Positions 1,830 to 3,261 of a stretch of DNA of 64,000 nucleotides are shown here, piece by piece (the stretch's first letter is position 1; each line of letters starts with the position of its first letter). The position numbers and the translations under genes are program-made. The stretch covers positions 1,539,914-1,603,913 of the forward strand of contig OX638327.1 of the NCBI GenBank assembly GCA_951812745.1, read 5' to 3'. Below the pieces are notes generated by a model, which was given only the letters and a program-made list of their open reading frames with translations, did no database searches and was not told the origin of the DNA. Origin of the DNA: an uncultured Nitrospirales bacterium (GTDB lineage: Bacteria; Nitrospirota; Nitrospiria; Nitrospirales; UBA8639).

Positions 1830-1832
1830 CGC

Positions 1833-1871
1833 AAAAAAAAACGCCCTCTTCCCTTCGGGGGAAGGAGGACG
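1833..1871 (-). terminator. Intrinsic terminator in the nadE leader
   Basis: On the minus strand a stem of about 12 bp with one bulged C and a 5-base loop (1842-1871) is followed by nine T residues (1833-1841). Only three bases separate the T tract from the nadE ATG. It can end transcripts arriving from aroC-aroB-GAF-ANTAR, but because the nadE promoter lies upstream of it, it would also attenuate nadE. An antiterminator would therefore be needed for full nadE expression. Confidence 0.75.
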
Positions 1872-1916
1872 CCTTTGTCCCAACGGCTAGCAAACGTACA
1901 CAAATCGTCTCTTGAG

Positions 1917-1946
1917 CTTGTACCAACGATTCGGACGACCTGTCAA
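1917..1946 (-). promoter_or_regulatory. Candidate sigma-70 promoter of nadE
   Basis: On the minus strand TTGACA (1941-1946) is followed after 18 bases by TACAAG (1917-1922). The -35 box is perfect and the -10 matches four of six positions. It lies between the GAF-ANTAR stop codon and nadE, so nadE can be transcribed alone. The predicted RNA would begin near 1910 and run through the terminator hairpin before reaching the nadE start. Confidence 0.55.
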
Positions 1947-1977
1947 GAGCGCAGGAGCGAACAAGGATCGTCGTTCC

Positions 1978-3261
1978 CTACTGATCCATGGACCCACCTT
2001 CCAATTCTCCGGCCAATATAATGGCCTCGGCGATCTCCCGCATGGACTTTCGCATATTCATGCTTTGACGCTGGATCAACCTGAACGCGTCGGCTTCGGA
2101 TAATCTCCGAGAATGCATGAGATAGCCCTTGGCTCGTTCGACGAGTTTTCTGACGGTCAGGGCTTCCTGCATTTCAAATGATTTTTCCGCGAGACGAGTA
2201 TGCTCAATGGCGACCGCTGCCTGGTTGGCAATGGCTTGCATGATTTTGATTTCCTTGTCGTCAAACGTATGCAACGTGGAAGTATAGGTATTGATCACGC
2301 CGATGACCTTTTCCTTGCTCATCATGGGCACCGACAATAACGAACACAACGACTCCCGTTTGGCTAAGTCCTGGTAGAAGAACTCTTTCTCCTTCTTCAC
2401 GTCGGACACGCAAATCGGCCGTTGTTCCTTGACCGCCCGCCCGCTGACGCTCTGGCCGATCTTGAGCGGCGGTTTCCGGCGATAGGCTTCGCTCAGGCTT
2501 TGGGTCGCGGCAATACGCAACCGCTGGCTCTCCTCCTCAACCAACATGAGCGAACAGATCGTGGAATCCATCATCTGCGCCGTCGTGGCCACGATCAATT
2601 GCAGCACTTCCTCAATCACACGATTGGAGGCCACGGTTTCCGACACTTGGGACAGGGTATCCAGTTGCAACGTTTGCCGCCTCATTTCGTTGTACAATCG
2701 CGCATTCTCAATGGCGCCCCCAACCTGGTTCGCGATCGTCGACAACAGCGCCAGTTCGGCATCTTGATACCGCCTCGCCCGTTTGTGTTGAACGTTAATG
2801 ACGCCGATAACGTTGCCTTTAGTCACGATAGGCAGCGACACGAAGGCCTGATACCGGTCTTCAGGCAGATTGTGAAAGAATTTAAACCGTGGATCATCAC
2901 TCGCGTGACGCGGAATGACCACCGGCACCCTTTCTTGGGCCACCCAGCCCGTAATCCCTTCTCCCAGCCCCACGGAGATCCGGCCGATGAGCTTGGGATG
3001 AGGATTCTTGGAGGACCGCAAGACCAGTTCGTCCCGATTCTCGGAGACGAGATACAATAAACAGGAATCGCCCTTCGTCACTTCAACCACCACTTCGACG
3101 ATGTGTTTGAGAACCGCTTCCAAATCGAGCGTACTGCTGATCGATGCACTAATACGGTACAGCACTTCCACTTCCCGCGTTCTTTCGCGAAGGATGGCTT
3201 TGACGTCCTGCTGGGGCCGCTTGGGAGCTTTCTTTGTCGAAGTTTTCTTTGTTGGAGTCAT
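1978..3261 (-). CDS. GAF-GAF-ANTAR sensor and antiterminator
   Basis: Probable signal-responsive RNA-binding regulator of 427 residues. A Lys-rich start is followed by a short coiled segment (RERTREVEVLYRISASI), a first GAF domain at about residues 45-190, a second at about 205-350 and a C-terminal ANTAR domain at about 365-420 (LVERAKGYLM to MREIAEAII). ANTAR domains bind paired hairpins in nascent RNA and block terminators; GAF domains sense small ligands or redox state. I see no kinase or receiver domain. The start at 3261 (MTPTKKTS) is preferred because a longer reading would pass through the palindromic repeat and overlap aroB. The next gene, nadE, has a terminator in its leader and is the most obvious local target. 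The ligand is unknown. Confidence 0.85.
   Translation of the reverse strand: MTPTKKTSTKKAPKRPQQDVKAILRERTREVEVLYRISASISSTLDLEAVLKHIVEVVVEVTKGDSCLLYLVSENRDELVLRSSKNPHPKLIGRISVGLGEGITGWVAQERVPVVIPRHASDDPRFKFFHNLPEDRYQAFVSLPIVTKGNVIGVINVQHKRARRYQDAELALLSTIANQVGGAIENARLYNEMRRQTLQLDTLSQVSETVASNRVIEEVLQLIVATTAQMMDSTICSLMLVEEESQRLRIAATQSLSEAYRRKPPLKIGQSVSGRAVKEQRPICVSDVKKEKEFFYQDLAKRESLCSLLSVPMMSKEKVIGVINTYTSTLHTFDDKEIKIMQAIANQAAVAIEHTRLAEKSFEMQEALTVRKLVERAKGYLMHSRRLSEADAFRLIQRQSMNMRKSMREIAEAIILAGELEGGSMDQ

Follow-up and report, generated by a model that had tools for sequence, protein, structure and literature searches.

The leader of the NAD+ synthetase gene nadE in an uncultured, nitrite-oxidiser-like bacterium of the order Nitrospirales is probably a transcription attenuator that responds to the ANTAR-domain protein encoded next to it, and the same protein is likely to act on three other leaders of the genome, the whole forming a nitrogen-assimilation regulon. 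Five kinds of evidence read from the sequence bear on this proposal, namely the protein itself, the overlap of a hairpin with a terminator, the conservation of both, the co-occurrence of the element with the ANTAR gene, and the presence of further targets. The window that we analysed comprises 64,000 nucleotides of a 2.35 Mb genome, and on its minus strand a GAF-GAF-ANTAR gene (1978-3261) is followed, after a gap of 148 bases, by nadE (45-1829).

The GAF-GAF-ANTAR protein (427 aa) matches Pfam GAF_2 in two stretches (3e-47) and, over residues 364-415 (2017-2172, minus strand), the ANTAR RNA-binding domain (PF03861; 7e-19), with a score of 67.9 bits against a family cut-off of 27.3. A search of the genome with PF03861 returned exactly one match, the gene adjoining nadE, whose product is the sole ANTAR protein of this bacterium. 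The domain can be aligned with those of EutV (6wsh), NasR (4akk) and Rv1626 (1s8n). At the 11 RNA-contact positions of EutV, which were listed from the literature and mapped in the present analysis with correction of a two-residue numbering offset, seven residues are identical (R142, K143, K149, E160, M172, N173, R175), two are conservatively changed (Y164F, K147R) and two are not kept (R168Q, R177S). The nadE product combines the Pfam domains CN_hydrolase and NAD_synthase and matches NCBIfam PRK13981 with 716 bits against a cut-off of 479; on the strength of family knowledge we take it to be a NAD+ synthetase of the glutamine-dependent type. Glutamine-dependent NadE uses up assimilated nitrogen.

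The nadE leader, like both genes, is read from the minus strand. Its promoter (1946-1917) consists of a -35 hexamer TTGACA (1946-1941) and a -10 hexamer TACAAG (1922-1917) separated by 18 bases, and congeners have an identically arranged promoter ahead of their leaders. Downstream lies a candidate antiterminator hairpin, H2 (1881-1866; GGGAC-AAAGGC-GUCCU; covariance-model match of 42.9 bits), in which a five-pair stem closes a six-base loop, AAAGGC, with A at position 1 and G at position 4, as in ANTAR hexaloops, for which a stem of at least 3 bp is expected. It runs into an intrinsic terminator, predicted to fold as a 12-bp stem (1871-1842; 7 and 5 bp around one bulged C) and followed by a U9 tract (1841-1833), the bases GCG and the nadE ATG (1829-1827). 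Folding predicts the terminator form as the minimum-energy structure of the leader. Bases 1871-1866 are shared: in H2 they make up the end of the loop and the 3' arm, and in the terminator they fall within the 5' arm. The two structures would therefore be mutually exclusive, and the predicted overlap is the antiterminator geometry expected of ANTAR targets (PMC3369931, PMC8934654). The C-terminal ANTAR domain of the gene upstream of nadE, the TTGACA-N18-TACAAG promoter, and a 12-bp stem with nine T residues stopping three bases short of the nadE ATG had all been named in a preliminary description of this DNA, and all were recovered here.

The 3' arm of the terminator contains GAGGG, the sole Shine-Dalgarno-like sequence ahead of nadE (1827-1848), and the terminator fold could also mask this ribosome site. 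It is conceivable that control is mainly translational, the protein acting to free the ribosome site, and the stretch from the stem to the ATG indeed offers no further purine-rich site. However, a 12-bp stem immediately followed by U9 is the standard form of an intrinsic terminator, all leaders retain a U tract, and the spacing of about 15 bases between GAGG and the ATG is long; we consider mainly translational control to be very unlikely, while both effects may combine.

Comparison with 60 related genomes, of which 51 encode exactly one PF03861 protein, a clear orthologue of the GAF-ANTAR protein, and nine encode none, places the leader in a wider context; among the carriers known by name are Nitrospira moscoviensis and Ca. 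N. defluvii, and orthologues are also found further out in the phylum. An element composed of H2 and a terminator stands ahead of nadE in 44 of the 51 ANTAR-bearing Nitrospirales genomes, two of these 44 (G053, G037), whose contigs are broken, resting on model matches beside nadE or the ANTAR gene. No such element was found within 260 bases 5' of nadE in the eight ANTAR-less genomes with a recognised nadE. It is also missing in G038, G058 and G059, in which nadE lies closely 3' of the ANTAR gene, and in the ANTAR-bearing G041 nadE itself was not found. The position of the terminator between the ANTAR gene and nadE might be taken to mean that it closes the upstream operon and that nadE transcription starts downstream of it. 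This reading appears highly improbable, given that the promoter precedes the terminator, that the U tract is separated from the ATG by merely 3 bases in the window and by none in several relatives, and that the leader also occurs in genomes whose nadE lies on a different contig from the ANTAR gene or is separated from it by other genes (G001, G006, G027, G009, G054). In one family, f2 (L135, L136, L139), two attenuators stand in tandem ahead of nadE, in the order UAGCAC-GANGAU-GUGCUA, a hairpin overlapping terminator 1 and a hairpin overlapping terminator 2, the first of these loops beginning with G, not A. In three class-level genomes (L250-L252) the GAF-ANTAR gene adjoins nadE and the attenuator is absent, and the adjacency may for this reason be older than the attenuator.

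With respect to the paired hairpins typical of dual-hairpin attenuators, the preliminary description had seen no clear pair of hexanucleotide loops and had suggested folding the leader for two six-base-loop hairpins and comparing it across relatives. Folding yields one hairpin with A1 and G4, namely H2, and no upstream partner (P1, here H1) in the window; by hexaloop scan and folding, a canonical H1 was found in none of the 11 nadE leaders of the window's genus. A probable relic of H1 (AGAGACGATTTG; 1912-1901, minus strand) has no stem left, and its position and 5' arm resemble the H1 of relatives such as GGAGAC-GACGAA-GTCTCC, so that the GAGACGA-like 5' arm in the genus may be a remnant. The comparison across relatives proved more rewarding. 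Outside the genus many relatives retain paired hexaloop hairpins with a covarying H1 (e.g., UGAGAC-AAUGAC-GUCUCA and GGGGAAC-AAGGGC-GUUUCCC), and of 31 non-congeneric nadE leaders, 14 have a canonical H1 of at least 5 bp, where shuffles predict 0.5. Among 29 H1 sequences of relatives, 83.6% of cells are paired, as opposed to 66.0% after shuffling and 45-47% when slid by one column, a percentage biased by the choice of these sequences as hairpins, which affects loop conservation and the shuffle control less; double changes number 44 against 17 in the shuffles. The terminator pairs are kept in 100% of cells across 29 related leaders, with compensatory changes.

The loss of H1 raises the question of whether the nadE leader still works in the window's genus. 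In EutV, lengthening the linker that joins the two hairpins abolished antitermination in vitro, for which reason both hairpins seem to be needed there, and the same study defines a single hexaloop as the minimal binding motif (PMC8934654). Given the loss of H1 and this need of EutV for two hairpins, the activity of the window's nadE leader is presumptive. One alternative holds that the ANTAR element ahead of nadE is decaying in the genus, H2 and the terminator amounting to a fixed partial terminator that finds no relief without H1, and that the other three leaders alone are controlled. The uniform absence of H1 from the congeneric leaders and the dual hexaloops required by EutV fit such decay, as do three congeners, G010 (L013), G008 (L014) and G002 (L015), that have lost the nadE attenuator altogether, yet keep the ANTAR protein and other elements, G010 retaining a terminator remnant ahead of nadE. 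Decay should, however, strike the loop first, whereas the H2 stem-loop (GGAC-AANGGC-GUCC) is near-invariant over the 11 congeneric leaders amid variable flanks and the terminator persists, its arms carrying substitutions; moreover, a lone hexaloop meets the minimal motif for binding. We therefore regard decay as unlikely. That a single ANTAR hexaloop without its partner suffices for nadE antitermination in this genus, while the same protein uses pairs of hairpins elsewhere in the genome, the second hairpin at FNT having a seven-base loop, is a proposal to which we give even chances.

To follow the element independently of the window, we used a covariance model, R1, trained on 29 leaders from outside the window's genus. 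R1 finds the element in all 51 ANTAR-bearing genomes and in one of the nine that lack ANTAR (G039, a weak match with E 0.004). Within the order, a sample of 296 genomes from the phylum places the element in 66 of 68 ANTAR-bearing genomes and in one of 20 listed genomes without the domain. Across genomes the element and the ANTAR gene thus go together, with Fisher p-values of 3.5e-9 and 4.6e-16, respectively, that are too small owing to shared descent; for the same reason the counts suggest more independent events than there were, the independent joint absences being two, in f4 and in part of g12. H2-like pattern matches in the ANTAR-less G039, G044, G050 and G052 look like chance: only that of G052 has a terminator-like tail, and no recognised nitrogen gene lies downstream of it. 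One element (L260; G209:C17) is in an assembly in which no ANTAR gene was found, which may reflect an assembly gap or a recent loss.

The nadE leader does not stand alone in its own genome. A strict pattern of H2 followed by T6 occurs at one place in the 2.35 Mb and its backwards control at none, which had suggested nadE as the sole target; when 3 mismatches are allowed, the loosened H2 pattern is near background (1498 matches against 1376 in the control). This suggestion was overturned by R1, which detects four elements: the nadE leader and those ahead of porin-amt-PII-amt (G000:C1:656480-656570), of a sigma-54 activator followed by a formate/nitrite transporter (FNT) gene (1244272-1244365), and of porin-urtA-urtB (538177-538082). 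Each of the latter three has both hairpins, the H1 loops being AUCGGU, AAAGUC and GAAGGG. Nitrospira proper has elements ahead of porin-amt-PII-glnD-glnA, FNT, nrt-like ABC transporter genes with a cyanase-like gene, and urt genes, all named from translations and only in part confirmed by Pfam. Since the wider regulon covers ammonium, urea and nitrite uptake as well as PII genes, nadE is best read as one member of a putative ANTAR nitrogen-assimilation regulon, and the signal would be nitrogen status rather than one specific to NAD. A place ahead of an NAD biosynthesis gene might also suit a riboswitch that senses a metabolite such as NAD, in which the hairpins would not be a protein target. 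Rfam scans of the window and the target loci matched no riboswitch or ANTAR family, and the same element stands ahead of amt, urt and FNT genes and co-occurs with an ANTAR gene, which leaves the riboswitch as the least probable of the alternatives.

Three further features of these leaders deserve mention. In L150, L152 and L153 of Nitrospira proper a nitrogen cluster lies beside gaf-antar/nadE, with attenuators ahead of porin-amt-PII-glnD-glnA and tandem ones ahead of FNT and transporter genes. FNT-type leaders of several genera have a second hairpin with a seven-base loop, mostly AAUGAAC, as against the six-base loops elsewhere (L224:1473-1566, L226:5871-5783, L231:5473-5386, L232:5897-5812, L235:1002-1092, L237:1035-1127 and L239:952-1049, confirmation of the downstream FNT gene being lacking for L226 and L239). 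Tandem dual-hairpin attenuators also precede an uncharacterised gene outside the nitrogen cluster (L188:5030-4851, in G059).

We propose that RNA would start at the TTGACA/TACAAG promoter and that by default the nascent leader would adopt the terminator fold, halting RNA polymerase just short of the nadE AUG. A nitrogen-status signal on the GAF domains would activate the GAF-GAF-ANTAR protein, whose ANTAR domain would then bind the AAAGGC hexaloop of H2 and keep the 3' arm of H2 off the terminator, allowing nadE to be transcribed; the same protein would work on the three other leaders, each with the usual two hairpins. In this scheme we infer the binding, the direction of control, the signal and the sufficiency of one hairpin in the nadE leader. 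Control of nadE by nitrogen status would be sensible because the glutamine-dependent enzyme consumes assimilated nitrogen and its activity is controlled by PII (PMC7196632). The preliminary description had likewise envisaged antitermination of nadE by the adjoining GAF-ANTAR protein, linked by position only. That link is now reinforced by the exclusive hexaloop and terminator, the related leaders with their covarying H1, and the near-perfect co-occurrence with the sole ANTAR gene, all of which support antitermination, albeit with the hairpin pair absent from the nadE leader of the window; as a refinement, the wider regulon points to nitrogen assimilation as the source of the signal.

Among known systems, EutV/EutW and the eut leaders of Enterococcus faecalis share the A1/G4 hexaloop, the second hairpin overlapping the terminator and most RNA-contact residues. 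They differ in pairing a REC-ANTAR response regulator with a kinase for control of ethanolamine genes, whereas here GAF-GAF-ANTAR has no identified partner, and in having dual hairpins, in contrast to the single one of the nadE leader in the window's genus. The NasR-nasF leader of Klebsiella oxytoca is alike in the fusion of a sensor domain to ANTAR, in a terminator 5' of the first gene and in nitrogen assimilation, but NasR senses nitrate through a NIT domain and serves a single locus, unlike the GAF sensors and the regulon including nadE described here. In ANTAR-encoding genomes, dual-hairpin elements have been predicted ahead of PII and of ammonium, urea and nitrite transport genes, as far as the main text goes (Ramesh et al., 2012; PMC3369931), the same type of element and the same gene classes as here; that text mentions neither nadE nor Nitrospira, and its supplement could list Nitrospira elements. 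The control of NadE by PII similarly ties NAD synthesis to nitrogen status, there through protein-protein control of enzyme activity, not attenuation (PMC7196632). The literature that we searched yielded nothing joining the ANTAR domain with Nitrospira, and a paper on regulatory RNAs that mentions both ANTAR and nadE makes no connection between them. ANTAR antitermination as a mechanism is known from NasR and EutV; that literature seems to contain no description of nadE as a target or of the regulon in Nitrospirales.

Nitrospira and its relatives are central nitrifiers, and to our knowledge little is known of how they control nitrogen assimilation. With its single hairpin, the nadE leader is a natural case in which to ask if ANTAR antitermination depends on two loops, and sufficiency of one hairpin, if true, would revise the two-hairpin requirement; cultivated carriers such as the two Nitrospira species named above make the regulon open to testing. 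Transcriptional control of nadE would complement the known control of NadE activity by PII and, if true, would bring NAD synthesis into the nitrogen antitermination regulon of nitrite-oxidising Nitrospirales. These sequence data point to the one GAF-ANTAR protein of each genome as a putative master antiterminator for the uptake of ammonium, urea, nitrite and, in some, cyanate and for glutamine synthetase, a circuit that NAD synthesis would join.
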